Positions 1 to 64,000 of a stretch of 64,000 nucleotides of DNA are shown one piece after another. Position 1 is the first letter of the stretch; every line of letters starts with the position of its first letter. Both the position numbers and the translations under genes were made by a program. The notes under the pieces are model-generated. The model saw nothing but the letters and a program-made list of their open reading frames with translations. It did not search any database and was not told the DNA's origin. Origin of the DNA: Astropecten irregularis (taxonomy: Eukaryota > Echinodermata > Asteroidea > Paxillosida > Astropectinidae); the NCBI GenBank assembly GCA_963971285.1, contig OZ020248.1, positions 20,915,873 through 20,979,872 on the forward strand, given 5' to 3'.

Positions 1-775
1 TCCAGATCAAGGCCATCGACGAACTGCTCCTTGAGTATTATATCCGGTTGTTTATACAGCTCGGGGTCCTTTTTCTCCTTTTCCTCATACTGGATGCGTT
101 GCAGGGTTCGATACGGATCGGGATCATCATCGTCGAGTTTTAGAGTGTCGTCGTCATCATCAAAAGGTAATCCCTCCGATGATGAAAAGGAGGCCGACTT
201 AAGAATTCTTTTAACCGCCGGAGGTGATTCATCCTCGCGTGCGTCGGGGCACCTCGTCTTTGTTCTTTGCACGACTGGGATGCCCTCATCGATGGGTAAT
301 GAACCATCGGGCACAATAGGGTTTCCACCACCGTACTGGACAGGCTTCTGCACATCAACGAACAATGAAAAAACATCATCGAATACAGGTAAAAATTTTT
401 TTTTCAATACGGGTAAAATTTGAGATAACGAGAATGGTTACTGATAAACCCACAGGACTATATCGTACCTCCTTTTGGTGCTTCTATCGGCTATGCCGCG
501 ATGGTAATATCGTTGGAGGCGCTATACATGTTAAACTCAATGCTCACTAAAATAATGGATGACCAAAACTTCCACGATGTCCTCATACATTTTAGAACTA
601 ACCTGTATGGTCCGATCCAGTTTGGTTCCAGCTTGCTCCCCTTGCATTCAATCTTCCTGTAGTTCCTCTTTAAGACAAGCATGCCTTCTTCCAGCTGGAA
701 CACCTTGACATTTCTCCCCTTTCTCTTTGCATAGGTTTTCTTGTCGTTCTCTTGAGCGGCCTTGATGTTTTCATT
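1..775 (-). mobile_element. Ty3/gypsy-type LTR retrotransposon fossil: Gag-like part plus integrase C-terminal part
   Basis: Bases about 760-490, read on the minus strand, encode the tail of a Ty3-type integrase: a basic stretch (KTYAKRKGRN), then KLEPNWIGPYRL, the GPY module that follows the integrase core in this group. Bases about 360-1 encode an acidic stretch ending in DIILKEQFVDGL, a Gag-like motif. Along the minus strand the integrase piece comes before the Gag piece, the reverse of the usual gag-pol order. The same parts in the same order recur at 62,980-63,700, where 541-770 is matched almost base for base by 63,311-63,540. I see no LTR. The element is a fossil with several breaks. 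Confidence 0.7.
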
Positions 776-872
776 TACCTGTATATTGAGGATTCTAAAT
801 TTGTCAATGGTTCTGAGCTTATAATTTTGACATTGGAATATAGATCAGCTAATAATCAGTAATTACACGACA

Positions 873-1100
873 CTACACAGCTTCTACCTGCTCTGTCGCT
901 TTTCTGGTGAATTCTTGCAGCGTCTGGAAATCAGGAGTTTCCGGGTGTTCCTCCTGTGGAGGTAGGACAGTCAAAACTTTATCACTTTCCTTGGTAGGGA
1001 TGTGGAACTTTTGTTTCAACTGATCTATCATATCTTTTCCATCATCAGTGAACTGTTTTCTTATTTCATATTTCTTTGGCACGCAAGCAGCAGAAATCAC
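873..1100 (-). CDS. Small ORF of unknown origin
   Basis: A 75-codon open stretch, charged and lysine/glutamate rich, containing FHIPTKESDKVLTVLPPQEE. I do not recognise it. It lies directly upstream (minus strand) of the Ty3 fossil and could be a leftover of that element or an exon of another mobile element. It has no signal peptide, membrane segment or known motif. It may be chance. Confidence 0.2.
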   Translation of the reverse strand: MISAACVPKKYEIRKQFTDDGKDMIDQLKQKFHIPTKESDKVLTVLPPQEEHPETPDFQTLQEFTRKATEQVEAV

Positions 1101-1139
1101 TGCAACTCACAGAATCCTTTGTGTACATATTGCTTGTGT

Positions 1140-1470
1140 TTCTGACACAAAATGCTGTTCTTTGAAAGCATCTGCACTTTAAAAAATGAAGTGCTATATT
1201 CAGCACCTTAGGACTTGGAGATAGCACTTGTTAGTGCTCGCATAGGGACTGCACAACTTGTGCTAAGCACTTGTTCAAGTGTTGTTGGTTAGCACCGGTC
1301 TGGGTGCTTAAAAACGACACTTTAAGTGTAAGAACCTTTGCTCTTACGGTGCTAAGGAATGTATACGCTCCCAGTATCCAAAAATTTGCACTTCAAGTGC
1401 TTAAAACAGCTCCTTGTAAAGACTGTAAAACAACCTTTATAGTGTAACTTCAGCCTTCTTCCAGCACTTA
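1140..1470. repeat. Cluster of short inverted motifs AGCACTT / AAGTGCT
   Basis: About 330 bases carry many copies of AGCACTT, AAGTGCT, TTAGCACC and GTGCTTAA in both orientations (for example around 1,255-1,275, 1,290-1,325 and 1,390-1,405). The density of complementary 6-8-mers would allow hairpins. No long terminal repeat pair is evident. It could be the end of a non-autonomous DNA element. Confidence 0.35.
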
Positions 1471-1740
1471 AAATCCCCTTCTCAAAACAGCCAGTCGTTG
1501 TAACACTCCAGTAGTAAAAAGGACAAACAGAAGAGTTATGAACTTAAGTACCGGCATAAACCGGCTCTTTAATTAATCTTCACTATACAACGTGTGTTTT
1601 TGTATGAAGAATGTTCAAACACATACCGTATCGTAGCAATTCTAAACATTTGATATTAGCAAAAAGCTCAACAACTGTCTAAAAACTGTAGAAACACATA
1701 AATAGAACTTATTGTTGTAATTGTTGTGTAATCATTCAGG

Positions 1741-1917
1741 TCAAATCACCCGTGCATTTGAAGGCAGGATGAACACTATTACATGATGATTGTTGAGGGC
1801 TCGGTGAATAATATTTGTGTAGGCGTCTTTATTATGTGGTATCCTGCCAGCTTGCACAGTCCTGTCTTTTCCACAGAGTCTACAAATGTTCTGAAGAGAC
1901 AATTTAGAACTGGCCAT
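1741..1917 (-). CDS. Possible first exon with a CRLCGK cysteine pair
   Basis: An ATG at 1,917 opens 59 codons beginning MASSKLSLQNICRLCGKDR. The CxxC (CRLC) near the N-terminus resembles the start of nuclear zinc-binding proteins, but no second cysteine/histidine pair is visible in this exon. It directly follows the Myb/SANT-type fragment on the same strand and could be a separate protein or an exon of the same mobile element. Family unknown. Confidence 0.25.
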   Translation of the reverse strand: MASSKLSLQNICRLCGKDRTVQAGRIPHNKDAYTNIIHRALNNHHVIVFILPSNARVI

Positions 1918-1984
1918 GATAAAATAACATGGTAGAATGAGCCCCCATTTGAAGCATGTGTGTTGCCAGCATTCATGAAGCTTA

Positions 1985-2430: not shown

Positions 2431-3349
2431 GACTGATTCCGATTGTAATCTTTGACCTATTTTATATAAACAATGGAAACATGCCAGCAAGATAAATATG
2501 TCATCGAATATTTTTTTCTCTCAATACCAGAAATGTTTAAGTTATTTATTACGGTTAAACCATTTTTGTTCACATTGTGCAGATCTTACCTTGCCAACAA
2601 ATGAAAACAAAACCACTGAAAATATTATTTGTAAAAAAATGCATTATTTTGTGATCAAATTTTAATTCCTGTCTAGTGTCAGTGGCCATTGAAAACTATG
2701 CCGAATTGGATGTAGCTAATCCTCATAGCTCTTCTATCTTTGCCAATGGTTTTGGCTGACCATCACACTCATGATGTTTTTATTGATGATCAAGCACAGC
2801 TTGTGCACATAATTCTTCATTTTCCTCCTTTCCTACAATCCCAACCCAAACCACCATTTTGTAATCTGTAGAATGCAAGCTCAGTATTTTGACAGTACTA
2901 TGTTTAGTGTGCAGGAAAGGTGTGATTCTGCTGATGTTCATACATACATGTTATATGTACTCAATTTGCATACATGTCTTTCTGAATGTTTCTATTATTA
3001 TTATGTAGTCATTATACAGGAATTGACATCATTTGTTCAGACAATGGGTAAATGATTGCAATGTCACTACTCAATGCCACAATGAAATACCAGGTAAGTA
3101 TCTTCACATCAGTGTGACAAGTGTTCACCTGTGTTATGGTTTACATCCTCAGATCTTACACTTCTGCTTTCAACCACATTTAGACATTACAATGTAGTAA
3201 AGATGCTATTTTACAGGATTTTATTTCAACTTTGGCAAATTTAAACACACACACACCACATACATGTATCAAGTAGATTGTGGATTGATCCATGTGTTTT
3301 TGAATTAAGCAGTGCTTTTTCAGTTTTCGTTTTTAAAACAGAACATTTA
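2431..3349. other. No gene seen
   Basis: AT-rich sequence without a convincing ORF, splice-bounded exon or repeat structure that I can support. Confidence 0.5.
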
Positions 3350-3876
3350 TTTAGAGACTACAAGATTTAACAGATACTGTAGTTGGTGTTAGCACCTGAA
3401 CCCTGGAATGACCCAACTTCAGGGTGTCACTGGGGCTTCAAACCTCAGCTGACGGTTCAGGCTATAACCCATACTCAGTTTATATTCAGCTAATGAATAT
3501 TGGTTCATGTTTGAAAATTGTAGATTTGTGAATTTGTTCAAGTTTTTTCAATAGTATTTAGCAAACTTGTATTTTATTCTTAAATGCTTATTTTTTCTAA
3601 AACACTTCTAGAGAAGTAACAAGTAAACAAAAAAATCTGCAGACTTATAATGATGTACTGCTTTGATAGATGATTCAGTTTTCTAGGTTGTGCAGATTGT
3701 AAAACAAATGATTAGATTTACTGAGTGTAGGTTTGCAAAGTATGATGTATGTGTACCTGTTTACTACACTGCTGATGTTATGATATTTGTAATGATACAG
3801 CAGCCCAAACATGCAGATTAATGTTTTGTCAAAATGTTCCACTGCCACTGCAAAATGCTCCACACTGCTGAAATAC
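3350..3876. repeat. Dispersed repeat, copy 1 (two conserved blocks)
   Basis: Bases 3,372-3,475 match 41,167-41,270 with only a few differences; similarity extends weakly upstream to about 3,350. A second shared block (3,770-3,875 versus 41,350-41,430, around GCAAAATGCTCC) follows in the same order and orientation. It holds no long ORF. It behaves like a non-autonomous interspersed element or two internal pieces of one; I see no tRNA box, poly-A tail or terminal inverted repeat that would classify it. Confidence 0.6.
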
Positions 3877-3879
3877 CTG

Positions 3880-6800
3880 AGAATCTTCTCCAGAGCTCTT
3901 GGAAAGATCAACATGCAGCTTGAATGTTAAGCAAGAGACACCTTGAACACAGTATCAGAACTGTCATTGCCTGAAGAATTGATGTATGAATCAACATGTG
4001 CAGTTATGACAACTGACATCCAACATGAGTGGAACAAACATCCTCAGCCTGCACCCTCATCATCATCACTTTCACTCTCTCCAAGACAGCAGTGCCAGGT
4101 ACTGAACTTGTGATGTGTTTCTTCTCATCAGTCAGAGATCTGCCAAGATATCAGATTTCAACAATGTCACTGATTCTCTTCAAGACTGGTACAAGTGCCT
4201 AACTAACATCCTGATGAAGAAGGCACAACTGTGCTGCATGGGTAAAGGTGCAGGAGTCCTGAAAATCCATTGAGATTATTGAGATGAAGTGAACACACAT
4301 CAGTGTTATCATTGAACTTCACTACATTGCAGAAGCTGTACAGACACACTGTACAGCCAACCAGTAGGAGAGTGATACTGCTACCATGCAGCATTCATTG
4401 ATAAATGACATGCAGTGAAACATCCTGATGAATGATACATGTGAAAAGCCATCAGTGTGTACAGAACTACAGAGATAATCATGGTATCCTCAACAACAAC
4501 TTGTGGACTTGAGCAGTGAGCATCAACAGTGGAGTGGAGCATATGACAATTCATTCTGTCCACCATTTCCTTTTAAGTTATGTTGCTACAGGTCCACTTT
4601 GATCTGCACATTCCTTCTTTTACAGTTAATGGAAACAAAGATAGTAAAATATTAAGCAAAATGTGATCTCATGCAACGTTAATGGAATTGCATAAGAATA
4701 TAAAGTGAACCTAATAATTTGTTTTGCAAAATATGTTTATGAATCCTGGTTACATTTCATTCACATTGTTTGAAGTCCTGTCACACATAATATGAAACAT
4801 TCATTCATTTACTGAACTGCGGGAGGTGCTCACATTTTAGAGCAAACTGAAGAAATCTGTGAAACTCTGATGAGAATTCTCATGTTGAAGTTATTTTCTA
4901 TATTTCATTGATTTGTATTGAATTGTATGAGCATCCCAACAGCACATGAATGGCAAACTGTTATGAAATACAGTTGTAAGATGTTACAAATTAAGGACTA
5001 GCCATTACTTTTTAGATCCTTGAATGTAGTTGAAAGCAGAAGTGTTGTTGTATTTTTCTCCTTCCGAGTCATACATGAGTCTTATAAGTGACCACAAATC
5101 TTGGTTATTGTTCTTGCATGTTTGTTCCAGCACAAAATGTAAAGTTGAAGTGACATTGCATGATTTTGCTCACAGCTGTCAAAAACTGTGATTATTAAAC
5201 ATGTCTTCAATTGACAAGTTTGTAATAACTTTTGAAACGGTATGATCTGCATATCTTAAAAAACACTCTGTAGTATTGTCAAATGCTGAGCTTTCATGAC
5301 AACTTTACCCCTGGTCCCTGTAGATTTGTTCTCTTTTCTTTCTGTTTTTCTTTAAGAATTTCAAACAGAAGATTCCTGCTGATCTTGAAAGATTGCTAGA
5401 AATCCTCCCACAATGTCTTGGTCACAGAGTCAAAGATCCATGACATCACTCCGTAGTGAATGTTTTTGGCAGCTGTCCTCTTTTATGCCAATTGCATCTC
5501 TCATGTAATTTGGGCTTTTTTCCATTCTCCTATCAATTTCTTTCATTCTTAAGGCACTCTACATCAATGTCTCTCTGTAAACTGACACCTGATTGTGGAG
5601 GCCTTGATGCATAAAGAGTCTGCACCACTGGTGATGTCATGCAATAGGGTAATGGTCTAGTTAGTGTAAGTTGAAACACTTGAAAGAAGGCAACAATGAG
5701 TCAGGTGGTTTCTGATGATACCCCCACCTCTGAGTGGTTAATACAAAGAACCAGCAATGGATATTGTTGGTCTTTGGGGGACCTTTATACCACAAGTGTT
5801 TTCAGTTTTAGAAGAAATAAAGAAACCTTTTCATCATGTTCTGAAACGAAAGTGGTGTATTTTTATCTGAAGGAATTACTATAACCATCTTTGTTGTGCT
5901 CTTTGTTTTGTTTGTTAACTTTTCTTTATTGTTGTTGTTATTGTTGTTATTTTGGTAGGTAGAGCATTCACTTTGATCATGTATTTTTCAGCTTGCATTT
6001 CAAACATAGAATTTTTGTTACATTCCAGAGAAACTCATGTGTGAAGATTGCATCAAGGAAAACAGTGTAATTGATCAGTGGGACATTGCCATTGACATTC
6101 TCCTAATTCATAAATTATCAGGGGAGGGGGAAACTTGGCCTCATCCCCCACCAGGATTGGCAGGGAAATGCCACCACCCATGTATGACAGATGTACATGT
6201 AGAAAGAGCACCAACCCACCTCCCCAACCTCCAACCCCTCATTTCAAAAATTGCAAGAATGTTTCAAGTGAGAGAAGGTGAATGGTTCTTTATTCTAAAT
6301 AAATGAAATCCTCATACAATGTTAGAATATTTGCAGTGACCTGAAAGACCTTTGTATAAAAACCTCTCGATACCACCAGGCTTTAGAAAATGGAAAATGC
6401 ACACAGTGAATTTAATCTTGACAGATGCAGACCAGTAAATAGGTCCAAATCAGTCTGTGGAGCTTATTAATGTTTTGTAAAGCCTCAAAATCTTTTTATA
6501 AAAGCATTTGCTTTTGTCTTGTAAAGGAAAAATGGATGGAACCCGTAACCAGAGTTTGGACATTCACCTTTGACCTGTTTAGATGAAATCATGCCCTAAA
6601 GTTGCTCTATTTTTGCCATGAAGTGGAGGGGTACATCAAGTTTTTGCTGGCACCAGTCAATTTGGCAGTTTTAGGGTAATTTTTCTTTAGATGGTATTTT
6701 CTCAAAAGGTCATCGGTTACCCTATAGAAAATTGTGAAGAAAATTAAAACGGAAGTTATCAGCTTCATTTTGGTGTATGGCTTGATTGCCTGAGAAACTT

Positions 6801-7620
6801 GTGAGTATTTGTAATAATTGTTTGAAATTGGTAATATTTTGCATGGGAGCCATGTGAAATTATTTACTGGTCTGAGTGTCTGCCGCCCTCTGTTGGTATG
6901 GGGACATAGTATGGTGCACTGTGTCCCTGGAGCAGGTACCCAGACTCCACAATGGAATTCCATATACGTACTGTATAATATCTCACATGTTGACTGAACG
7001 CGTGTTCATTTGCTTTGGAGTGTGGAAGTAAACAAGTTAGGTGTTGCGTTGCCGATGTTGCTGAAGTTTTAACGTTCCTAAATGTTCTGGACAGTCGTTC
7101 TAGGTGCAAACATGTATTTCCAGTTTGCGTTTAGTCACCTCCCGGAAGTCTATGGCCATGTCATGAATGTTGATAGTTGGTGACTGATGATGACCAGTCT
7201 CAGGAATGATCGAATGGTTGTGGCCCAGGCTGCCACGCATCACATGCACGGACAACGGACTTGTGGATGTCATGAACGCAACAACATACAGTATACATGA
7301 ACCTTGTGACAACAAAGTATTCCTTCAGTTTGAATGTGCAACGTGGACCTGATGACATACCAGCATACATGGAGTGCATTGAGTGCTATTAATTAGCTTG
7401 TATTAATGTGTACTTCCAAGATGCAAAGAGTAAGCTCCACGTCTACAGCAACTCGGTGGGTTTTGACTTCTTGCTAGTCTGGTCCCTTCCTCCATTGCCT
7501 GGGCTAAGGAGTAAGGTAAGTACATGTACATGATGCATGGTGCTGCAGACAGGTCATTTCTTCATTGTTATGACTTATGTGCTGGTTCTTTCTCCGCTGT
7601 ATGCCAACCTCCCAGAGCAT
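3880..7620. other. No gene seen; low-information stretch
   Basis: Short ORFs occur on both strands, but none carries a recognisable motif. 3,960-4,095 on the plus strand could be read as an exon (ELMYESTCAVMTTD), but I cannot place it. GTT/TTG triplet repeats lie near 5,930-5,955. Nothing else is supported. Confidence 0.4.
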
Positions 7621-10500: not shown

Positions 10501-12475
10501 CACCATTACCTCCATTCGGAATCACGTGAGACTTCAAAGCTGGACAGTGTAAAGAGACAGACCAGTATAGTTGCAGGAAAAAAACAGTACATGTCTTTAT
10601 TTTCAGATCATGGTTTCATAAATCATACACATATAGTTCACCAACTGGTGATACAAAGTTATAAATAAAATGTGCATTCCTTTACACTTTATGAGCCAAT
10701 ACACACTTGGAAAAGGCAATACGCTGATGCTCAGGGTCAGCTGTACTTCGGTTATAGAACTTTGCAAAAGTTGATGCTTTAGCCCAACCAGCCGTTTTCA
10801 AAATTGCATCAATTGGCAGGCCCTTGTTTGCGGCCCCTGATGTGGACGCGCAGCGTATACTAGTATGTGCCTTGAACAATGAGGTATCTACCCCTGCCTT
10901 AGATAGTGACTCTTTCAGCCACCTGGATATGGTTGCCGTGGTAACTTCATTGTGCGGAGGAGCATAGCTCAGAAATAATTTAGTCTTGCTGGCCCGCACA
11001 TGTTTGGTTTGTCTAATATAGTTAGCTAACGACCTTACTACACATAATGTTTTGTTATGTGTATAGGGTGACAAAACCAAATCTGGTTGTGGTTTACCTG
11101 GGCGAGAAGTCTTGACAAGGTCGGTAATTTTAATCTTAACCATACTTCTTTGTACGACCATATTGCTTAGTTTAATAAGAGACAAGGTCTGAGCCCGTTG
11201 TCCGGTGGTGACAGCACACAAACAAATGAGTTTATATGTCAACATTTTCAAATGTATTGATTCCACCGGTTCTAACCCGCTAATGAAACAAAGTAATATA
11301 CTAATGTCCCAAGTACATGAGTATCGAGGTAACTGTGGCCTCAAGTTGAACACACCTCGCATAAACCGAGTGACAAGTGGATGACTACCAAATTGTTCTG
11401 AACTGTCCGTTGTTGACCAAAGGATGGCAGACAGGGCACTGCGTGCTGTGTTCACCGTGCTACATGTATATGCAGCACCATTGTGGTACAAAGCTGACAG
11501 GAAATCGAGGGCCTGTCCTACAGACGCTTGAACTGGATGGATAGTCCGTTCAACACAGAAGTCAAGCCATTTTGTGATCGCAGAGTAGTATTGTTTCCGT
11601 GTGCTGGGTTTCCAGGATTCGGTGATGATGTCGATAGTTCTCGACGAAAGTCCTCTTGTGCTGAGGGATCTCCGGATAAGAGAGCTGCACACAGCACTAG
11701 GCGATCTCGCAAGGGCTGCCGATGCTCTGGCAAATGTGGAAGCTGTAGTAGGTCGCTTCTCTTGGGCAGCATGAGTGGTCTCATGGTGATGATGCGTAGT
11801 AGTCTGGGATACCAGGTCTGTGTGGTCCATAATGGGAACACCAGGATGGTCGTTGCCTTGTCTCGCTCTATCTTTTGTACAACCCTGTCGATAAGACAAA
11901 ATGGGGGGAAACAATAAGCAACTTCATTTGCCCATGACAAGGAGAATGCATCAAAGGATCTCGCTTCTGGATCAGGATAGCGTGATATGAATGGTTTCAT
12001 CTGATAATTGATTCGGGATGCAAACATGTCAACTGTTGGTTTGATTTCGGTTGCTTTTAGTATGCGGTCAAAAATTGCCGTATTCAGTTGCCATTCCAAA
12101 TTGTCATTGAAAGACCGGGACAGCAGATCCGCGGTAGAATTCTGTTTTCGGGGGATGTGGTATGCGATTACCCATATCTCATTCTCTAGGCACCAGAACC
12201 ACAGTTCCCTACGCGAGAGCAACACGAGAGCCATGAATTTCCCGTGAGGAGGCTGGCAAGTTTGTAATCCACCATTGTAAATCAGTGATTGCCTCATTAG
12301 GCAACTGCATGTGGGCGGAGAAATCGCCATTGTTTAATTTCAATGCAGTGTCTTTTGCTATTTCTAGACTTCTGTAAAAGAGAGGCCCGGTGGGTACCGA
12401 AAGGAAGGATGAAATTAATTTCCCAATGACCTGAGCTACAAGCCAGATTGTTGGCCGTCGCTGATTTATAAGATG

Positions 12476-13513
12476 CAGTGTTCTCCAACGTTTACGCGAA
12501 ACTTCGACGAAATTCTTCCGAAAAATCGGCATTTTGAATGAGCTTGCTTTATTCAAACTACATTTTCGATGATTTATCATACATTCACATGAAATAAGAA
12601 GTCATTTTTGGAAATTATGAGGAACAAAAAGTTGAGTTTGCGATTGCAACTGTTGACACTAATTTTGCCACAACGGGATTTTACCTTACCGCGATGTGCC
12701 ATGTGATGGCCGTGGGGCTAATGCTTCGTGTGCGACCGGTCAACAGTCCGCTCGGTCACGCTACCAACGTTACGTACCTTAGTACACGGAAACTTTTAAT
12801 GTTCACCTGTTATTGAATGATTTTCGCTCTTTGCTAAGATTTACTTATAACTTGTCATCTGTCATCACGTTTCGTTTGGAATGAATGGAATTTTTTCTTG
12901 ATTTCTCTGTGAAACTTAGAATATTATAATGTCTACCTAGGCCCACAAAATATGATGGTAGGCCTATAGAATATAAAAAACTGGTCTACCCAAGTAATTT
13001 TTTTAAGCTGAGGCCACTTTTAAGTTTTATTCAAATGTTTTTGGAATTTTGAGGTTTATTTATTTTTGCTTGACCATTAGACATATTTTCTTCGGTTTTA
13101 AACTGATTTTCAAAATAATGTGGGACCAAGTCTCTTGTCTAATTTTGGATGTGAATAGATTTAGATAATTATATTTGTTAAAATTGTTAATAGGGTAAAT
13201 CTTATTAATTAATAAACCTAAAATAAAACGCTTGGTCTTAACACATTTTAGCTACCTAGATCAATAACTGAAAATTGAAATTTTGGAACAAATAGTCGGT
13301 ACTGATCTTTTATTTGATGTTCTGTTTAATAATTTGCTTAATAAATGGAAGTCTTATACAACTCTTGACAACTTTTGCACACACAAAAATTGGGGTAAAG
13401 TGGACAGAAATTGCCTTAGAATGCATCACAGAGCATCTAGAATCCAAACGCCGTTAGTGCTTCCCGCTACGCGCTCAGCACCACTCTCTAATTTTATAAG
13501 TTGGAGAACACTG
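12476..13513. mobile_element. Non-autonomous DNA transposon with 14-bp TIRs and 6-bp target duplication
   Basis: Starts CAGTGTTCTCCAAC and ends with its exact reverse complement (13,500-13,513). AAGATG flanks both sides (12,470-12,475 and 13,514-13,519), a perfect 6-bp duplication. It sits inside the DIRS fossil, so it is younger than that copy. No transposase ORF is visible in 1,038 bases. The CAGTG start is hAT-like, but hAT usually duplicates 8 bp (some subgroups 5-6), so the superfamily is left open. Confidence 0.8.
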
Positions 13514-13905
13514 AAGATGGGTACATGCCTGCACTATGCTAGTAATTTTCCGTGTTGGCAAACAAACCAACATGTCGGCTGTATTTATTTCAAATCCCAG
13601 AAACTCTAGCTTTCTCGTCAGGGTTTTGACTGATTTGGTTTCGTTAATAACAAACCCCAAGCACTCCATTAAGTCACACCTAGCATGTACATTCCTGTTA
13701 CATTCCTCTTCTGAATCACCAATAAGTAGAGAATCATCTATATAGTTAGCTGAAATATGGCCCTGATTTCGTAATGTTGCCACGACAGGTTTCATAATTT
13801 TGGTGAAAATGCGGGTTGCGCTAGAAAGACCAAAACATAAACAAGTGAACTGCCACAATTTGTCTCTCCATTGAAACCGTAAGCACGGGGGTTGACTACA
13901 CACCT

Positions 13906-14415: not shown

Positions 14416-16323
14416 TGTAAGAGCAACTCTTCAACACCTTTCTCACACTGTACCCTCCAGTAGGTTGCTTTGCCCGTGGGTTGTAGATGCTGTATGCTGG
14501 ATTTCCTTGCTTGTCCAATGCTTGCTCCCTACCAGCGTTCTCATTAAAATGCAAGGCAGCTAGGTATATCCTGCAGAAAAATGTTCAACTGTTGTCAATG
14601 TGTTCATAACTTCATATTTACTGAAATAGATGCATGCACAAAAATACTGCAGTCAACGGGACACTCAAGATGAAAATGTGATGTCTACATGTTATTATTT
14701 TATTCTGGCATTACGCCAAGGATTCTTAAAAACAAACTAAATCACTGTACTACAAAGTACCCTTAAACCCTCAGAGAATATGACAACTGTGCGATACAAA
14801 CCCAACGAGATACAGTAACCCCAGCCAGATTAGTAGTAAAGTTTCATAGATGGAAGGGGAAGAAAAAAGAGCCCAAAAACTTAATTTAATTAAACAAAAA
14901 TCAGCAGAGTGCTTGAAGATAATTCCTCACCTGCACAGCATACCTTCATACGAGAAGGCAAACATCTTCGGTGCATACTGATTTATGACGGAGTGGAAGC
15001 TTTCCATAGATGAGGTCTGCATTGATGGAGAGAGCATCTTTATGTCTTTTCGAACCCACGTGCTGTCCAAAATGCTGGAAATTTTTTTGGCTGGTGTAGA
15101 GCCTAAAACAGGTAAATTACATGTACATGTACAATTTTAGTGTGGTTAAAAAACTTTTTTCACTCGGAATAACTACCAACAAGGACCTTTTTTTATTTTA
15201 AATAACATACATGATTGTACCTGGCTTTATCCACTTTCGTTCTGGAAGATCTCCGTGGGCACACTGGGGGAACAGCTGGCTGTCATGATGATGCACATTG
15301 ACCACATGATTGACCACGCTTGAAAATTTGGCCAGCATCAAATCGCCATCTCCATCAGGAGTAGAAGCAGCAACCCAGTAAACATTGTTCACTATGCCCT
15401 GGATCCAGTCCTTTATTTCTCCGCATCCAGATGAGTTTTCAGCAGCATGTAACTTCTTCTTCAGACCTAATGAAAGAAAGACTGCTTTTTCAAACCTCAA
15501 TAATAATATAATGCATGTTCTCACAGATCTGAAGATGGGCTCTTTATAGGCACATACAATGATAACATGTACTTGTACTTGATTTGTCTGCCGGTGAAAA
15601 GCAAACAAGTCTTCTTTTGAAATATCCGACTTGTCAGTTTAAACATGATAAATGTGTACGGAATTAAGACTCACCTTTGGCAACATGCCACACATCATAA
15701 AAGTGCCGGATACCACGAGGACTTAGATTTTCCCGGATGTATTTGGTGATCTGCTTGTGACGATCAGTAATGATGGTACTGATTGTCACATTCTTGCGGT
15801 CCATCCATTTCATTGCCCTCACTAAGCCCTCTTTCTCCATGAGGGGAGACTTGAAGTCCGTCTCACTCTTCTGTAAAAACAAAACAAAAAACACATAACC
15901 AAATGTGTGAATTGTGACTGACCATAACCAACCTCAAGTCTGGATTGACCTGAAATTACTAATTAACATGTTGTCAGTGGGTTGGTATACAGCCATTTGA
16001 ATATAAAGTTAAATGACTAATATAAATAAATATCCTAGGGGTGCATTTTGCCAATTTCATATAATGCAAAATTTACAAGGCGTATGTAATGAGTGAGAAG
16101 CAAAAGTTGTGAAAATGTTTTATTCACCTGTACTTGCTCAATGTGGAGAACTTTACCCTGGTTCAACTCCAAAACGCTGTAGCAGTCAAATTTGGCTGAA
16201 AAGCCCATGGAGTCCGCCCGCATATCTCCCGCAAGAACTGCATCAACGCCACTGTTTTCGATGTCGGACAGTATCACGGCTTGCTGCTCATGCCATCTAT
16301 CTACGATAGCAGGCTGAAGATAT
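14416..16323 (-). mobile_element. Five-exon transposase, THAP-associated (Kolobok-like) DDE family, N-terminus missing
   Basis: Five minus-strand exons with GT-AG borders and continuous frame: 16,323-16,128; 15,870-15,675; 15,466-15,221; 15,102-14,931; 14,570-14,416. The product carries LAGDMRADSMGFSAKFDCYS, then IITDRHKQITKYI and FYDVWHVAKG, then AASTPDGDGD, then SSMESFHSVINQYAPK and LAALHFNENAGREQA. The two aspartates and the MESFHS glutamate fit a DDE catalytic triad. Related fish and cnidarian proteins have an N-terminal THAP finger; I assign it to Kolobok from memory, with reserve. I see no stop or shift in the five exons. The 5' exons are absent; a Ty3 integrase fossil lies upstream. 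The last exon ends at a donor (CA|GTAAGT), so the true 3' end is not located. Confidence 0.65.
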
Positions 16324-18122: not shown

Positions 18123-19417
18123 CAGTCGACTCCCGTTATTACGAGGTCCGTCGGACTTTCACAATTTTGTCGTTGTAACCGGAACCTCGTTACAACCGGA
18201 GCGCATTTTTCCGCCATTTTGTTGCGCCCAAGTTACGTGCTATATTTACACGTGCGTCTTGTAATTGTGTAACGCACGTGGGAACTCATGAAAACACGAA
18301 CAAAATGCATGATTTTATGTTTGTATATGTCATTAACGTACATGTATATGATGATGAATAAATGAAATAAATGATACTGCTTCAAGAGTATAATAATTGA
18401 CGACCTGAGTCGGAAGTAGACGGCATCAACTGATGTGAAGAATCGCTGTGAAAAATCACGGACGTACGTAAGTATGTCACTCGCACAAATCGTGCCGATT
18501 GACTTCGCTTCCGGTTTTAATTTGTTATAATAAGTCAAGAGAGGGCGCTATAATATTACATTAAAAAGGGGAATATTATGTTTTACGCTTCTGATTATTT
18601 ATTATTATTTTTTGCGTCACATAATTTCTGTGGGATAGTTCAATTATTTATTAAACCGTTTTTTTACCAGCATGGCACTGCTCTCCCAATTACAAGCCAT
18701 GGTTTTAGCGGAGGTCAGGCGATAAAACAGATCAGTTTCATCGGCGTTAAAGATGTCCGCGATCCCCCAGACAACCGCAGATGACCCGTAGGCCTACCGT
18801 GCGACGTCCGCTGAACATTTTATCGATCACCCTTTTTCAAAAGACAGGGTGCGATTTTTGAAATATATTTTTAATAACCACAACGGTGGACAATTTGGAG
18901 CAATTACACCCCACCGCTGGCTGATGTTCCAGCAGCAATGCTTTTTAAATCTATTCTTACAAAGCTAAGTTATGCTGATTATCCCCATTGTCCGTTTACA
19001 ATGCCTACTCAGCTCAGCGGCATGGTGCCGCAGTCATGAACCTAGTCGGGCTGAGAAAACCGCAGCGGGGGGATTAGAGACTTGACACGCATGGCTCTGC
19101 GTTCGCTAATTCACGCCATCCCATTGAATATATTTAAGATCGGCACACTCGTGAAGCTACGTCGCCAGAATTGGAACTTGAAAGATCGCCGACAAAAGGT
19201 TTGAAAAGATGTCGTTGTAAATGGATTGAGAACAATGTTTTTGCTCGCATTTGGTTAGCCAAAGTCGTCGTTATACCCGGAATCTCGTAATGCCCGTGCT
19301 CGTAATAACCAAATATTTCCCCATAGTAATGTGCACAAATTGATCGGGACTGGGGAAATATGCTCGCTAAATCCGGGTTGTCGTTATTTCCGAGCTCGTA
19401 GTAACGGGAGTCGACTG
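18123..19417 (-). mobile_element. pogo/Tigger element with TA target duplication, decayed transposase
   Basis: Begins CAGTCGACTCCCGTTATTAC and ends with the matching inverted repeat CGTAGTAACGGGAGTCGACTG; both ends are flanked by TA (18,121-18,122 and 19,418-19,419). This TIR start is characteristic of pogo/Tigger-type Tc1-mariner elements. Near 18,770-18,680 the minus strand encodes DIFNADETDLFYRL, the first-aspartate block of DDE_1 transposases, followed by AKTMA. The rest of the transposase is too decayed to follow, so the copy is a deleted, inactive derivative of 1,295 bp. It lies at the 3' edge of a hAT dimerisation-domain remnant and probably inserted into it. Confidence 0.85.
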
Positions 19418-19419
19418 TA

Positions 19420-19655
19420 TTTATTGTTCCTGTAAGGTAATTAGGCAGGAAGGCAGCGAATTCACCCAAGAAATGGTTGAGGTCTATCTTCTGCACATGT
19501 CCGAGATTGCTTAATCTGATGTTGCCCATTGAGTTTTGCACTACAGTCTTGATCAATTTGAGTGCTGAGAAACTACGTTCACATAATGCAGATGTAACTG
19601 GCAGGACAACAGTAATTCTTGCCAAATGATAAACCCCTTGAAACACCTCTCCAAA
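19420..19655 (-). pseudogene. hAT transposase C-terminal dimerisation domain remnant
   Basis: Minus-strand reading: LARITVVLPVTSALCERSFS, ALKLIKTVVQNSMGNIRLSN, then FLGEFAAFLPNYL. The V-T-S-A-x-x-E-R-S-F-S-x-L-K-x-I-K-T motif is the hAT C-terminal dimerisation domain of the TTF/ZMYM-type subgroup. The pogo element at 18,123-19,417 begins right after it. An upstream part of a similar transposase is at 20,951-21,340 on the same strand, so the original hAT copy may have been split by the coiled-coil family between them. Confidence 0.75.
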
Positions 19656-19747
19656 GGGCTCGATCTAGTTAACATTCTCTGGGAGTGAATCGGATAGTTC
19701 AGCCTCTGGGATGCCATTGGTAACATCCATAAGGACTAGATTCTAGA

Positions 19748-46959: not shown

Positions 46960-47320
46960 CTTCACTGAGGGCTGAAATACTGCAATGACGACACACTTGT
47001 GTTATGATGAATCCTAATGAGTAGACATCAGTATGAGGTGACATAAGACGTTCATTCTGTACAAGCTCTGGTGCAATCTAACAATATCTCTTCATCCATG
47101 TTTCTTGTTCTTCCTTCGAAAGCTGGCGTCAAGGGCATTTTGATCCAATATTTTGCGCCTTTCTGAAGTCAATAATGACAGGAGTAAAGCCTTCACCATG
47201 TAGAATAATGTTGCTTTCATGGAGATTCCCATGTACTATATCTGATCTATGAATTGCTACTAGACCACATGCAACCTACTGGATGACACCTATCCATGGC
47301 ACTTGATGTGTAGGGGACAG
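46960..47320 (-). pseudogene. Protein-kinase-like fragment (subdomains VIb-IX)
   Basis: Minus strand in changing frames: VACGLVAIHRSDIVHGNLHE, SNIILHGEGFTPVIIDFRKA, QLSKEEQETWMKRY, APELVQNERLMSPHTDVYSL, GFIITQVC. This follows the kinase order catalytic loop, DFG, APE, subdomain IX. The catalytic aspartate position reads HGN and DFG reads DFR, so the protein could not have been an active kinase even before the stops. Kinase domains like this (I-D-F-G-K-A ... I-A-P-E ... D-V-Y-S) occur in multi-copy TE-linked ORFs of cnidarians and amphioxus. Confidence 0.6.
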
Positions 47321-50064: not shown

Positions 50065-50952
50065 CTACAACCCTATATCAACAAAATGTTCGCAGATCTC
50101 ATCAGCAGAAATTCGACACTTATAATCGTAATTCAAGGCTTTCTCTAGCATAGGGATGACTGTTGCGTATTTGATGCGATCTATGGCACCCAGAGCGTCT
50201 GGTGGATGGCCGTTGGTACGCTTGCCGATTATTGTTGCCTGGTGCTTTCCAGGAACTACACCCTTTAAATCCCACAGCTGGGCACCACTAAATAATTCTG
50301 CTAGTGTGCAGCCCAGCGACCATACATCTGACATTTGCCCAGGTGACAAGCCTTGTTCACACTCGCCCATGACTGCAGCGGAGAAAGACGGAAAGGAGGC
50401 AATGGTACTTTTCAGATCATCCAAAACTAAATATTTATCATTCACTCTAACAATGGTGTAAAAGTGACCCGGGTTCATCTGCATGGCTGCTGTCAGTGTA
50501 TAGAATGAATCATGGACTGTTATGTGCTCATCAACAACTACTTCAGGCTTCATTGAATTTTATACATTCTTGTCCAGACCGAGAGTTACAGTAAAGAAAT
50601 TTGGCAATTCATAATACTGCCCATCTAGGATGGTGTGCAAAGATTCATAACAAATCTCACATAACACAGGATAACATCGTCTCCTTACAGCTTTATCAAT
50701 CATCTCATTCAAGGCTCTGCTAACATTTCCATTATGTCTCTTATTGACTGAGTCTTCATAAAACAAAACAGGGTCATTAGAGCATTCTACAGGATATATC
50801 TTTCGACACATGGGGCATGTCCCATTCCCTTTAAATCCTGTTACAAACTTGTTGCTGTTATGGTGAAATTTCTCAAAAGCTTGTACAATTTCTGCATCTC
50901 CATGATCTTTCAGATAATAACCTGCAACAATATTGGACAGCCAGTCCAACAA
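50065..50952 (-). pseudogene. Hybrid ORF: USP-type peptidase (finger to His box) joined to a protein-kinase C-lobe
   Basis: Minus strand from 50,952: TCPMCRKIYPVECSND and LCEICYESLHTILDGQYYEL, two CxxC pairs as in the USP zinc finger, then LPNFFTVTLGLDKNV. After a stop at 50,560 it continues in the same frame with DEHITVHDSFYTLTAAMQMN, PGHFYTIVRVNDKYLVLDDL: the histidine box of ubiquitin-specific proteases. Without interruption this runs into GQMSDVWSLGCTLAELFSGA, QLWDL and KALNYDYKCRISADEICEHF, the C-lobe of a protein kinase (subdomains IX-XI). The Cys box and the kinase N-lobe are absent. USPs remove ubiquitin; with one stop and both active sites incomplete this copy cannot act. Confidence 0.65.
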
Positions 50953-57016: not shown

Positions 57017-57757
57017 TCAACAAGCTCCTCCTATCTGCCTGCAGATTGACAACCTTTTCTTGAAGTTGTTGCGTTGATAACGGAGAATTTGGGGCATTTG
57101 TTGAAGCTGATCCGATGATAACAAATCCAGGACACGAGTTGGGAGGACGTCCCTTTTGAATTTTGTTTGTATGCCGTTAAGATTGCGAAATCGTAACAAT
57201 TGCACTACTAATAAAGTGGGACAGTTTACAATACGACACATGATATTTTTGGTACATTGGTCATTGTCACAAATTTCGCACTGAAGCCCCTTGACAGTTT
57301 CTTCTTCAAAATGATTTCGCACACAGATTTGCAAAGTGGAATTCCATATTACGGGAACTGATAAAATACCAGATGATGGATTTTCTATTTCTGAAACGTT
57401 ATTGCAAATAAGACATTTAATGTGTTTTGTTATTTCAATTTCATTAGTTAAACAAGTCTCACCAAAGAAAGGAACCATGAGCTGCTGATAAAATTCAGCA
57501 GCGTCCTGTTGGTGATTGCAACTAATTTTCATTTGAACGGCAGATTCTTTTATTATAGGGTCGACGTAAGAAAAGGATACTGATTTGTGGGTGTCCATTG
57601 ATAATATTTGAAACAGTTCTATGAGCTGTCGCCACAAGAAAGTATCACTTCCTTGAAATTTGTCAGTGATTTTAGCTTTATTGATGAAAGGCTTCAAAGC
57701 TTGAACTGTTGCAATCCACCAACAGGACACTCCGTTATTTTTAATTCCCCGTGGCAC
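57017..57757 (-). CDS. USP-type ubiquitin peptidase, N-terminal two thirds, open for 246 codons
   Basis: MPRGIKNNGVSCWWIATVQA carries the USP Cys box (G-[IL]-K-N-x-G-x-[ST]-C). HQQDAAEFYQQLM is the QQDAxEF motif. CLICNNVSEI and CEICDNDQCTKNIMC supply zinc-finger cysteines, and NCPTLLVVQLLRF is the L-P-x-x-L-x-x-x-L-x-R-F motif. The His box that should follow is missing; the frame ends at KRLSICRQIGGAC. USPs cleave ubiquitin from proteins. ATG at 57,757 is in good position, but a preceding exon is possible. It lies 120 bases upstream of a Ty3 integrase fossil on the same strand. With the USP-kinase hybrid at 50 kb it suggests a repeated, TE-linked USP family. Confidence 0.65.
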   Translation of the reverse strand: MPRGIKNNGVSCWWIATVQALKPFINKAKITDKFQGSDTFLWRQLIELFQILSMDTHKSVSFSYVDPIIKESAVQMKISCNHQQDAAEFYQQLMVPFFGETCLTNEIEITKHIKCLICNNVSEIENPSSGILSVPVIWNSTLQICVRNHFEEETVKGLQCEICDNDQCTKNIMCRIVNCPTLLVVQLLRFRNLNGIQTKFKRDVLPTRVLDLLSSDQLQQMPQILRYQRNNFKKRLSICRQIGGAC

Positions 57758-58739: not shown

Positions 58740-59960
58740 ACGATGTCCTTGGTTGGTTCAAACAGAATTCACGAATTCTCTCGTACAGATACCACTGGCG
58801 CTTCGCATCTAGCCCTGATGGTGTCTGTGGCTCCGGAAGATCTGCTGGAAGCCAACCTCCTCATCATCAAGTGCCTTCCTGAGCATACACTGTGCCTGGC
58901 TCATCAGAAGTGAAGCTATACAAATAGAGAAACAAGCAAAAAAAAAAATCATTCACTTTAATACATGTACTTGTTTTAACACATTTGACACAATGAGCAC
59001 TTTTTATGAATGATAGCCAATGAATGTTTTTTACCGAAAGTGTTGAAAACTCTTGATCCCTTGAAGTGGCTTGAAGTACACATGTAAGGGGAGAGAAACG
59101 TCTGCCAGTCGTACTGTGGTACAAAGATGTTCCCACCTTCATCGCCCACAAGTTGAGGAATGTTAATTCCTGCTTTAGTACTTCCAGAGATGACTGTCGT
59201 GACATCATCCAGGCACGAGACTGGTGTTCGGCGGTAGCACTGCTTGAAGAGGCGCCATTCTGGCGCAAACTTTGTGTGGCCCACCACCATGAAGTGCAGC
59301 TGGATGGAACAGTGCAGGCCATTCATGCAGCGCCATAGCAGATACCACAGGACGAACCGGTTTTTGTTCTGCCCACTGCAATTATTACAGTGTAAGTGGG
59401 CAGTATGTTCACCTAAACCATACTGTTGAAAAAAATGGTTAAGATAACTTATGATGGCATTGCTACTCTTTGAGATGAGGACAGACTCGTCTACCAGGTG
59501 GTTCACCTGCTGTGTAACTCCCTCACAATGAACTCCAAAAATGCCAAGCTTTCTTGGGGTTAAAAAATACACAGGTCCAGGTTGTATAGGATCTTCAGGA
59601 TAATGCACCTGTTGTGCATAATGGAAAGAGTAGTGCATGACACCGACTCTTCCCTCACATGCCTCATGTGGTCCAAGATGGCTGACTCCTTGCGCTTCTG
59701 ATGCTGACTTAGCCTTGCTGTACAAGTCTGCGGTAGAATGTCTGCTCTCAGTCCAGTTGCTGGAGGTTTGCTTGTTGCAGCATACAACGAGACTGCTTCT
59801 CAGTATCAGGCCGGTTGGCAGACATATACAGCAGGCTGTTGTTCCTATGACAATGCCAGCACACATCTGTCATTGGCTTGTGGCATACGATGAATGGACA
59901 TAATTTACACTACATCTTCCGAAATGTTGAAAGAGCAAGCACTCTGTTACTTTACTGTGA
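58740..59960 (-). pseudogene. HCDNCSGQNKN-family (DUF7869-type) transposase, copy B, broken
   Basis: Minus strand: KPMTDVCWHCHRNNSLLYMS, ANRPDTEKQSRC; after a stop and frame change, HYSFHYAQQVHYPEDPIQPG, PVYFLTPRKLGIFGVHCEGV, TQQVNHLVDESVLISKSSNA, AHLHCNNCSGQNKNRFVLWY, VVGHTKFAPEWRLFKQCYRR, NIPQLVGDEGGN; intron 59,037-58,917; then SDEPGTVYAQEGT, stops, and LDAKRQWYLYERIREFCL. Alignment by eye with copy A (35,283-39,837) is clear over exons 4-7. Two introns of copy A are absent here, while the last is shared. HCDNC is HCNNC and APDWC is APEWR, so proposed catalytic residues have changed. Exons 1-3 and TIRs are not found. Confidence 0.75.
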
Positions 59961-60699: not shown

Positions 60700-61310
60700 A
60701 GTTGGGAAAACTAGTTATGAAATACTTGGGCAACTGCGTATCAGTTTATGACCAATTGTTGGCCTCCGACTTTGCTCCAGACGCACCCCAACCAGTCCTC
60801 CACGAGTGCATCGTCCATCCAGCCCTTTGGGTGCACTCGTACAATGACGCCAGCAGGAAACTTGGTCTTCGGTATGGTCTTCCGCTTGAAAACCACAAAG
60901 GGTGGCAACTTCCCTCCATCAGGCCAACATCACGGTGAACCGGTCCTTCCTGTTGTCGTAACGCTAACACTATTAACACCACGCTGTGCAATAGTAGCAC
61001 TGTACGGGATGTTGAAAGTTAGCGGCGTCTGGTCCGCATTGCCAATGCGGGAAAGGGGATAGCCATGCTCACGTCGCTGTCTGATGACGTACCGTTGGAA
61101 AGAGATTGTCTTGTCCTCCACGTCTTCAGGCAGCCGCTGGGCGATGTGGGTGCGACGTAGAGCCCATGGCAGCCCATGAACTTGCGCGCCCATGATGTAC
61201 TGGCCTTGAAGTCGACGATGTTCAGTCCACCTGTAACAGCCTTTGCCTTCAGCCTGAGAGCAACGGTGGAGATGGCGTGGCGTGATAAGTCTGATTCCTA
61301 CTGTCATAGC
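60700..61310 (-). pseudogene. pogo-like (DDE_1) transposase fragment
   Basis: Minus strand: NIVDFKASTSWARKFMGCHG, SFQRYVIRQRREHGYPLSRI, GNADQTPLTFNIPYSATIAQ, RGVNSVSVTTTG; after a frame change GKLPPFVVFKRKTIPKTKFP, AGVIVRVHPK, GWMDDALVEDWLGCVWSKVG. N-x-D-Q-T-P-x-x-F is the first-aspartate block (NMDET in relatives), and P-P-x-[VI]-x-F-K ... G-W-M-[DN]-x-x-x-x-x-x-W is the following one. Ends are missing and no TIRs are recognised. Different from the pogo copy at 18.1-19.4 kb. Confidence 0.75.
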
Positions 61311-61740
61311 CAGATAATTTGAGAGCTGCCTGAACAACAGTAACAGGATGATGGTTTCACCATATCCTTTGCCTGTTGAATACTGTTGTTCAGCTGTCTC
61401 GAAATATCTAGAACCTTTGAGAGAGTCCTAATCTTCTCTCTGGCTTTATCTTTACTTCTATTAGAATTGCTCTTGCCAAGAACATGACCCCCCAACCTGC
61501 AAAATGTCTTTATCGTTTCTGACGACTAATGAAATTTTATCATATTTTATGTCCCAGAGGGTGTCCTCCATTTGGACTGAGAGAGTGAATTTTGTAGGAA
61601 GGAGCACTCGCCCTTCTCTTACGTGACTCTTAGTAGAGCTGCCCTGTTTACTTCTGTAGGGGCATGTCTCTTTATGTTTCCACAGATAATGTCGATGGAA
61701 ATATCCAAAGCAGTTGCTGCAAGGGATGTAATCATTCACG
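61311..61740 (-). CDS. Zinc-finger-like protein of an uncharacterised fish/invertebrate family
   Basis: Minus strand: MNDYIPCSNCFGYFHRHYLW, KHKETCPYRSK (C-x-x-C-x12-H-x-x-x-C type), EGRVLLPTKFTLSVQMEDTL, ISLVVRNDKDILQVGG; then VLGKSNSNRSKDKAREKIRT, LSKVLDISRQLNN, AKDMVKP. The Y-[IL]-P-C-x-x-C-[YF]-G-x-[FY] ... L-W-[RK]-H-x-x-x-C-[PP] start followed by L-L-P and 'I-S-L-V-x-[KR]-N-D' is a pattern I know from repeated uncharacterised genes. The frame shifts once near 61,490. The pogo fragment follows immediately downstream and may have interrupted it. Confidence 0.45.
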
Positions 61741-62067: not shown

Positions 62068-62452
62068 ACACCACGCACTGCTCTATTGGAATAGCATACG
62101 GTACAGGTATTGCTAGCTTTGACCGGAACTTTGAAGCTTTGAAGCTCTGATAACAACTATGTAGGTATACGGGGCGTGTTCAGGAGACAAGTAGCATTCG
62201 ATGTGCACATAATCTGGCTCTGTGTACAAAGCTATTGCTGGGGCTTGCTTGCACGCATGCATCATCAAGGGTGGTCAACGAGAGTGAACTGGGGAACTTA
62301 GCGGGTCAGTCACGGTGACTGTAGGCGGTTGCCTATTGGAGCCTACACGGCCTACCACTTCGGGAGCGAAATGGTGAACTCTGAGAGAAATGTGAACAAA
62401 ATAGACTAAGTCCCAGAGAGCACTTTCATTGTGGAGCTCGGAGGAGGGGCTT
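62068..62452. other. No gene seen
   Basis: 62,190-62,260 on the plus strand could be read as RCAHNLALCTKLLLGLACTH, faintly hAT-like; too short to support. Confidence 0.3.
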
Positions 62453-62454
62453 TA

Positions 62455-62790
62455 CGTACAGTAATGTATATCTTTTGAGTTACAACTTATGATTTGGAAT
62501 GGTTCATATGAACAAACAGATGCGTAGTGAATCAAATACTGTACATACACTCTGGGCTTAATGTAGGGCAGTAGAAATTCCAGGATGCTTTCATATCTGT
62601 ATGGCTTCACTGTTTTCGCTGCTTGGCCGCTCTTTGTCTTTTGCTTGTTTTGTGACTTGACAAATGCATCACGGACATCTTTCTTCAAGCTTCTTGAAGA
62701 GGCCAGCTGGAGTGGCCCGTTCAACCAGAAAGGAAATCAGTTCCTTATCCTTGATCAGTTATTGCAAGCCGGAGGTAGTTCCAATCTTTG
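62455..62790 (-). pseudogene. MADF domain fragment, duplicate of the 28.8-29.0 kb copy
   Basis: Minus strand: KDKELISFLVERATPAGLFK (MADF start: L-I-x-x-V-E), then in another frame LKKDVRDAFVKSQNKQKTKS, GQAAKTVKPYRYESILEFLL, PYIKPR. 62,470-62,685 matches 28,727-28,942 at the DNA level with about 15 differences in some 213 bases, including intron sequence. The frame change near 62,695 disables it. No BESS exon follows within the window. Confidence 0.65.
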
Positions 62791-62979
62791 TGGCTTGTGA
62801 TTTTCCAGTTGACGGAAGGCCAACGAAGAATGTGTAGAGGTTTGGCACGATGTTGATGGTGTTTTAAGTATTCAACTTGGATGTCAAACTGCACATAAAT
62901 AAAGTGAAATTTCTTGAAATTTATGCAGCAATTATAACTCAACATTTACAAATGTATAGTAGCATGAATAATTTTCAGG

Positions 62980-63720
62980 TTAACTGTTAAGAGTGGACAA
63001 TATGATAAGGACGAACTGCTCCTTGAGTATTATATCCGGTTGTTTATACAACTGGGAGTCCTTCTTTTGCAGGCGAAGGAACAGGCGCTGTAGCGCCACA
63101 GAGTACTCACGTACAGTCTCTCCCCGCTGCTGTTTACGGTCAAGTAGCTGGCGCTGTAACTCCCCGCTCGTCAATGGCTCCCCATAGGATGTCTGGAGGT
63201 GGGCGAGTACGGCGTCTGGCCCCACTCCGCTTGCCAGAAGGGCTCGTGCCTTTACTCTGTGCCGCGACGGTCAAATCGTTGGAGGCGCTATAACTCGATG
63301 CTCACAAAAATAATAGATGACCAAAACTTCTGCGATGTCTTCATACATTTCAGAACTAACCTGTATGGTCTGATCCAGTTTGGTTCCAGCTTGCTCCCCT
63401 TGCATTCAATCTTCCTGTAGTTCCTCTTTTAGGACATACAAGCATGCCTTCTTCCAGCTGGAACACCTTGACATTTCTCCCCTTTCTCTTCGCATAGGTT
63501 TTCTTGTCGTTCTCTTGAGTGGCCTTGATGTTTTAATTTACCTGTATGTGGGGATTCACCAACTTGGCAATGGATGTCTTTAGTGTCTGGTTCCTCCACT
63601 GGTCAAGGCCGTTGGTCTGAAGGTGAAATGGGGAAGACACACGCTGGCGAATGCCCCATCGCTCGTACAATTCCTCGGACAACTGCCAGGGAAAACATTA
63701 TGGCATGTTGGTTACTATAG
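62980..63720 (-). mobile_element. Ty3/gypsy fossil, second copy (Gag-like plus integrase parts)
   Basis: Minus strand: 63,690-63,560 encodes a piece of integrase core (SSPYH-like, closely related to 17,185-17,330); 63,540-63,320 encodes the GPY-type integrase tail (KLEPNWIRPYRL region), nearly identical to 541-770. 63,225-62,998 encodes a Gag segment: SYGEPLTSGELQRQLLDRKQ, QRGETVREYSVALQRLFLRL, PDIILKEQFV. Order is integrase then Gag, as in the copy at 1-775. Fossil with several breaks; no LTR seen. Confidence 0.75.
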
Positions 63721-63789
63721 GTTTCCCCGCACATTTAAACATTTTATTTTTGTATAATAAAGCACACCATATGCGGTACATACAACAGT

Positions 63790-64000
63790 ACATGAACTTT
63801 ATGCATTTGGTTGTTTCTGGTCAGGGTCATTGAGAGCAATCAGATGAAGAATGGGCAGATTCGTCTGAAACTCTCCCATTGCCTTCTTCCAGCTGAAGCC
63901 TTCGGCAGTTAGTCTGTTGACCATGGCAGTAACAGTCGTGTTTTTCTTCTTGGCAAAGTTGTCCATTTCTTTTTGCGCCCAAAGGGCGATGAGTTTTACT
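63790..64000 (-). CDS. Partial ORF running off the window, uncharacterised family
   Basis: Minus strand: VKLIALWAQKEMDNFAKKKN, TTVTAMVNRLTAEGFSWKKA, MGEFQTNLPILHLIAL, then stop. The F-A-K-K-x-x-x-x-x-x-x-M-x-x-x-L-x-x-E-G-F-S-W-x-x-[AV]-x-x-E-x-Q-x-x-x-P-x-L phrase is familiar from repeated invertebrate proteins without a named function. The 5' part lies beyond base 64,000. Confidence 0.35.

Follow-up and report, generated by a model that had tools for sequence, protein, structure and literature searches.

A two-armed transposon locus with opposite coding polarities in the starfish Astropecten irregularis, a candidate piRNA transposon trap

The DNA described here is a 64,000-nucleotide stretch of the starfish Astropecten irregularis (contig OZ020248.1, here C11, positions 20915873-20979872), referred to as the window, and searches beyond it covered a genome of 475.7 Mb in 168 contigs. 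The window is a graveyard of transposable elements (TEs) whose recognisable coding remnants lie on the minus strand. A six-frame Pfam search at E<=0.05, in which stops were written as X and segments with stop-free runs of at least 44 amino acids (aa) were kept (leaving out 849 aa of the plus and 2345 aa of the minus strand), returned 19 rows on the minus strand (best 8e-40, four of them weak at E 0.004-0.05) and none on the plus strand. When the 150 longest stop-to-stop open reading frames (ORFs) of each strand were searched singly at E<=0.02, the minus strand gave 18 families, mostly TE domains (best 2e-41), and the plus strand four weak families, none a TE domain (best 0.004). Stop-to-stop ORFs of at least 150 aa numbered 14 on the minus strand and one on the plus, ORFs with a codon score of at least 10 numbered 26 and five, respectively, and repeat pairs separated by over 2 kb comprised eight direct high-scoring segment pairs (five families) and a single inverted one of 39 nt. 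ORF length and repeat-pair direction, neither of which draws on a protein library, agree with the Pfam strand bias. The claim of a preliminary description that all recognisable coding reads on the minus strand was therefore borne out, and the effect is larger than first claimed.

About 40 coding blocks had been counted in that description; their one-strand reading stands, but as a number of insertions the count does not, because adjoining blocks can be one element (pogo and DUF7869 recur side by side elsewhere), and by eye there are roughly 15-17 insertions. With superfamily names derived from domain names or assigned by eye, the minus strand carries a Ty3-type integrase C-terminal remnant at 491..844 (named by eye), of which 491-810 is repeated in the same orientation at 63257-63573, followed by a DIRS/Ngaro-like element at 10685..13903 with Pfam matches to reverse transcriptase (13586-13864), a SAM-like domain (11426-11620) and tyrosine recombinase (10742-11242). 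A weak MULE transposase remnant (15676..15882, Pfam E 0.004), a hAT remnant (19137..19664, named by eye and followed in a genome search), a P-element-like transposase with a GTP-binding insertion domain and an RNase H N-terminal domain (21632..22412) and a DDE_Tnp_4 remnant (30885..31061), which we take to be of Harbinger type, lie further along. Pfam also identified two copies of DUF7869, the first (35695..36138) previously set apart as an HCDNCSGQNKN family and the second (59012..59479) adjoining a pogo/Tigger-type transposase remnant (60771..61312, DDE_1 and HTH_Tnp_Tc5), together with a hAT dimerisation region (43124..43306), a protein kinase fragment (46982..47287) and a ubiquitin C-terminal hydrolase domain (57116..57748). 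An ORF at 50068..50559 joins a further Pfam kinase fragment (50086-50340) to what by eye is a ubiquitin-protease-like N-terminal half, and is referred to below as USP-kinase. Kolobok and HECT blocks had also been proposed, and neither was seen in the Pfam scans of the window; of the proposed MADF-BESS block, the BESS domain was recovered weakly (E 0.0099, single-ORF scan).

Short repeats resembling short interspersed nuclear elements and miniature inverted-repeat TEs (MITEs) occur in both orientations. MITE-like stretches of 0.4-1.3 kb flanked by inverted repeats of 28-81 nt lie at 44975-46254, 7636-8158, 18121-19419 and 10137-10498, and inverted pairs of CAACTCGTACAC-like and CAACTCGGTCCG-like units form arrays at 38434-39172 and in sample L025 (about 8914-9937), apparently the subterminal repeats of an inserted element. 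Concatenated cDNA as the source of the window was ruled out by the absence of poly-A/T asymmetry, and a plus-strand depletion of poly(A) signals (AATAAA, 42 vs 75 in the window), which by our own estimate is roughly the expectation from base composition, was not used. At gathering score, Rfam gave one tRNA-like match in the window and one in 14 interior samples of the surrounding DNA.

The window (1..64000, with minus-strand TE coding remnants by Pfam and genome searches) is a slice of a two-armed transposon locus of about 3 Mb on C11, and the one-way rule reaches far past it. TE coding lies on the minus strand throughout a right arm at about 19.34-22.03 Mb (about 2.7 Mb) and on the plus strand in a left arm at about 18.96-19.25 Mb, the two being separated by a neutral centre of 50-85 kb with edges within 19.255-19.28 and 19.33-19.34 Mb. 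Twenty 10-kb samples were taken at 200-kb spacing across C11 18.6-22.4 Mb, and in the 14 interior samples (19.4-22.0 Mb) matches to the minus-strand ORFs of the window, queries that share families with it, formed 43 merged intervals on the minus strand and none on the plus, four of the samples holding no match. The genome was then searched with eight protein queries, of which six came from the window, the Ty3 query from sample L022 and the P/THAP-like one from L031, with the query copies excluded and matches within 8 kb merged per family; as these searches scored the best candidates (150 of 1136 for Ty3, 150 of 267 for hAT and 101 of 311 for DIRS), the counts are lower bounds. They placed 87 copies on the minus strand and one on the plus strand of the right arm, seven plus and no minus copies in the left arm, two plus copies at C11 22.09 Mb and four plus and five minus copies on the remainder of C11. 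Copies are partly non-independent, hence all families were also merged within 10 kb, and with the window excluded 65 of the 66 resulting right-arm places were minus and one plus. P, hAT, pogo, DUF7869, USP-kinase and Ty3 all obey the right-arm rule.

The turn in polarity, which was followed through samples L029-L040 (19.04-19.38 Mb), is also visible by tblastx, codon score and AT skew. By tblastx, all 15 right-arm-like intervals in L030-L034 were inverted relative to the right arm, as were four of the five in L012; L011 was mixed and L029 held no intervals. ORFs with a codon score of at least 10 stood at 24 plus and three minus on the left, two and one in the centre, 16 and 58 on the right without the window, and four and seven outside, and AT skew was positive in seven of the eight samples from the left and negative in 15 of the 16 from the right. 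Chains of blastn matches of at least 250 bases were mostly direct when right-arm samples were compared with each other (30 direct, 2 inverted), mostly inverted between left and right (2 direct, 7 inverted) and about even for pairs involving the centre, where the 30 kb read within 19.28-19.33 Mb consist mainly of short repeats in both orientations. With left elements on the plus and right elements on the minus strand, the long elements read toward the centre, so that outward transcripts would be antisense to them. Beyond the right arm, an exon at C11 22.2 Mb gave 14 matches to monocarboxylate transporters at 29-52% identity, the nine named ones all from Patiria miniata.

Both arms contain a repeat of about 4-6 kb (window copy 3096..7561, plus strand) that is direction-locked at the places scored. 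The segment 5671-7561 of the window recurs at 36 further right-arm loci in the same direction, at two left-arm loci in reverse and as one diverged copy on C22 (best 40 of 2127 candidates). Alignment delimits a well conserved core at 6751..7562 (plus), and among the best 40 of 44 candidates for its query (window 7031-7570) 32 right-arm cores, the window's included, were plus and one, a partial copy, was minus, with two minus cores in the left arm; most right-arm copies are 92-98% identical. Near the end of the core, a 5' splice-site consensus (7513..7521, plus) is conserved, the splice-donor sequence AAGGTAAGT being present in the window, L013 and L025, and also in L041, the copy from the left arm, where it is reversed. 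Splice donors are not enriched as a general plus-strand signal (two plus and one minus in the window, and the same counts in the 14 interior samples), and are notable only for their position at the repeat. Among 31 tallied right-arm core matches, the window's included, 22 end at query 520-532 (window about 7550-7562), eight at 538-540, which is the query end, and one earlier, so a sharp common end of the repeat is not settled. A first impression of modular purifying selection was likewise weakened, since, apart from a variable stretch, L013 and L025 mostly share 90-100% identity. The core is almost confined to this locus; among the scored candidates, it also occurs outside the arms at C11 16.73-16.80, C10 5.22 and C19 1.74 Mb, and at three outside sites (C11 16.79, C10 5.24 and C19 1.73 Mb) a DUF7869 remnant stands antisense to the nearest core, 7-17 kb downstream of it. 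The core may be a promoter-leader, although local duplication, or an element that spread recently, would give a similar pattern.

Several families have accumulated in the arms, which make up about 0.6% of the genome yet hold 31 of the 51 DUF7869 loci found, the window's included; the best DUF7869 match is from Patiria (66%). For the hAT remnant, the tally took matches ending by residue 90, the rest of the query being another dispersed repeat, which dropped one right-arm match (21.972 Mb, minus): the six genome matches with a start at residue 1, one of them its own, all fall in the right arm together with two short matches at residues 56-87, and matches elsewhere cover mainly the remainder of the query, with a few that start at residues 17-59. 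USP-kinase has further right-arm copies and, outside the arm, three short tails on C25. No further right-arm copy of DIRS was found among the best 101 of 311 candidates, and none of 19 parvovirus-like NS1 matches fell in the right arm. Five of these NS1-like matches, all plus, lie just past the right arm (C11:22129315-22167151), two on C115 and 12, of mixed strand and some in 4-kb tandem, on C1 at 11.1-15.1 Mb. P/THAP-like, DUF7869 and pogo follow one another in one order at C11 19.638, 20.533 and 21.458 Mb, and DUF7869 with pogo also at C27 1.524 Mb; the recurring trio may be one composite element. CpG observed/expected was 0.57 in the right arm, 0.61 in the left arm, 0.66 in the centre and 0.74 outside, low arm values that would be in line with long methylation. 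Three loci in the genome encode PIWI-domain genes, a count in which Ago and Piwi are not distinguished. In L037 (C11:19340001-19345000), three tandem units of about 1450 bp on the minus strand each carry an Rfam histone 3' untranslated-region stem-loop behind ORFs of about 100-170 aa, and may be a gene array of a mobile element with mRNA ends of histone type.

No comparable polarity is seen for these families on other contigs. Plus and minus matches there numbered 68 and 69 for Ty3 and 49 and 52 for DIRS, and merged loci 10 and 9 for DUF7869, 16 and 12 for P, 7 and 6 for P/THAP-like and 4 and 1 for pogo, with a single plus locus for USP-kinase, and the TE-rich region of C1 at 10-15.5 Mb gave 14 plus and 17 minus.

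One locus thus combines two polarities and the switch between them with accumulated, decayed copies and a repeat that is direction-locked and carries a splice-donor sequence. It is probably a divergent, two-armed, flamenco-like transposon trap producing PIWI-interacting RNAs (piRNAs). Transcription would proceed outward along both arms, perhaps starting at many of the repeat copies, and the long RNAs, antisense to the trapped elements, would feed primary piRNA production. Antisense insertions would be kept, and long sense insertions, which would add sense RNA and termination signals without contributing to silencing, would be lost over time, leaving the locus as a genomic memory of transposon families. 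A uni-strand piRNA cluster had been proposed from the window; the dense, decayed, one-way TEs over about 2.7 Mb support that proposal in part, and the existence of two arms whose polarity reverses at a neutral centre departs from it. Given both the reach of the rule and its reversal across the centre, the proposed antisense precursor fits better. More speculatively, and with considerable doubt, the 30 or more near-identical modules spaced through both arms might each act as a promoter-leader with a splice donor that transcribes the inserts behind it as antisense precursor, a repeat-and-insert memory in which the module copies found at C10, C19 and C11 16.8 Mb would serve as small satellites of the main trap, with an antisense DUF7869 remnant downstream of the nearest copy in each case. 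If true, such a repeated leader module would be a candidate answer to how megabases come to be transcribed.

TE-derived piRNAs are reported from the starfish Asterias rubens, in which the RNA of three of four parvo/denso-like contigs was mainly negative-sense and their 5'U small RNA almost exclusively so, a pattern that the authors suggest may stem from integration into or close to a locus that produces piRNAs (PMC6085071). These data support the plausibility of a piRNA mechanism and do not bear on the C11 locus itself. In the literature surveyed by title and abstract opening, no starfish piRNA cluster or comparable echinoderm locus is described. Were the locus transcribed as predicted, it would amount to an echinoderm archive of antisense TEs several megabases long, with an orientation rule that is nearly absolute across several TE classes, and the trap model would be testable, as young insertions should lie on both strands and old ones only antisense.

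A number of observations weigh against a divergent trap. AT skew is slightly negative also in three of four centre and three of four outside samples, and blastn chains of at least 250 bases between outside and right-arm samples were 14 direct and one inverted, which is unexpected for a control. Right-arm chains of 60-249 bases were even (15 direct and 14 inverted, by subtraction); set beside the biased longer chains, this indicates that long elements follow the rule and short repeats do not. Right of the arm, at C11 22.09-22.17 Mb, DUF7869, P/THAP-like and parvovirus-like pieces are plus again, which suggests a further small block of opposite polarity. As to the repeat, the inverted partial core lies within the right arm (20.447 Mb), a plus-direction fragment stands outside the arms at 18.609 Mb (L009), and the core holds one MYB-like site and no TATAWAW match; from two plus core pieces at C11 16.73 Mb the DUF7869 at 16.79 Mb is 62-66 kb downstream and sense, and P/THAP at C11 16.672 Mb is not antisense to the leftward core. 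The recurrence of the core may itself be duplication. Finally, the sole wrong-way protein copy in the right arm is an intact Ty3 with a 1429-aa frame (plus, 19.670 Mb); a second Ty3, at 21.166 Mb, has a long open frame of 1534 aa on the minus strand, and two intact elements, one per strand (n = 2), only hint that direction is filtered after insertion.

Segmental duplication, in which repeated copying of an ancestral one-way block along C11 was accompanied by inversion of one part to give the left arm, would require neither selection on direction nor RNA. The 36 other right-arm loci resemble window 5671-7561 at 76-97% identity, some DUF7869 pairs have equal scores, the P/THAP, DUF7869 and pogo trio keeps its order at the three C11 sites given above, and the eight of 31 core matches that reach the query end imply that the shared stretch may extend further. 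The window alone, however, holds about 15 different families in a single orientation, P/THAP copies of the right arm range over 35-88% identity, blocks that L019 has in common with the window stand in a different order, and L013 is unlike the window beyond the repeat, and duplication is an unlikely source of the pattern.

An identical bias would arise if the arms were two very large introns, or belonged to a divergent gene pair, with transcription running away from the centre and sense insertions selected against; splice-donor sequences at the repeat ends would suit such an arrangement. This explanation is nevertheless improbable, as the window has no plus-strand Pfam domain at E<=0.05 (the arms elsewhere being sampled), about 32 core copies are unlike one gene, TE enrichment is strong, and a ratio of 87 to one, over TE classes that are unrelated, goes beyond the bias known from introns. 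An insertion bias, by which TEs enter one way relative to a replication fork or to the local chromatin or transcription state and meet no later selection, could make the switch point a replication origin and would draw on a rule that spans TEs with unrelated integration chemistry; we consider it very improbable, since the effect is local (other contigs and C1 being even), short repeats lack it and the two intact Ty3 in the arm occupy one strand each. Chance within one window chosen by a pattern-seeking reader, though the window was indeed selected, is negligible for a rule that spans 2.7 Mb, mostly outside the window, and leaves 65 of 66 places minus once the window is excluded.

Among known piRNA systems, mammalian pachytene loci have bidirectional promoters and are short, TE-poor and A-MYB-driven. 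A divergent trap on C11 would share with them arms that diverge from a central region, a likeness that is structural only: the locus is not TE-poor, and one MYB-like site was noted in the core, with the centre read for 30 kb. The flamenco locus of Drosophila melanogaster, spliced near its 5' end, is likewise a long locus of dense, decayed TE remnants in which most insertions are antisense to one direction of transcription, a direction that is inferred at C11. Unlike flamenco, which has one arm, the C11 locus does not run in a single direction from one end: two opposite arms flank a neutral centre, the longer of about 2.7 Mb, and 87 of the 88 right-arm copies found, from several TE classes, obey the rule. 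For flamenco, 79% antisense insertions, mostly Ty3/mdg4, are reported (PMC10495008), with a length of up to about 650 kb (PMC10643416). Candidates syntenic with flam outside the melanogaster subgroup span 227-1085 kb, and in flam-like clusters the bias among long terminal repeat (LTR) families comes from Gypsy alone (PMC10643416). These Drosophila unistrand clusters are also strand-biased TE traps and arose repeatedly; at C11, the bias is not carried by Gypsy/endogenous retroviruses alone, as the DNA transposons P, hAT and pogo, and also DUF7869 and USP-kinase, follow the rule as well as Ty3 does, although the available Drosophila comparison covers LTR families. In Trichoplusia ni, uni-strand clusters have 57.1% of insertions and 79.7% of TE nucleotides antisense, the largest called ovary cluster is 462 kb, and the W chromosome has been proposed as one giant cluster (PMC5844692). 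Antisense insertions are kept there too, and the W chromosome may exceed the C11 locus in length. Modelling indicates that piRNA clusters should exceed 0.2% of the genome (PMC7259680), a threshold that the C11 locus, at about 0.6%, would meet alone. Compared with the uni-strand clusters found described in these sources, it is longer, stricter and less selective as to TE class.

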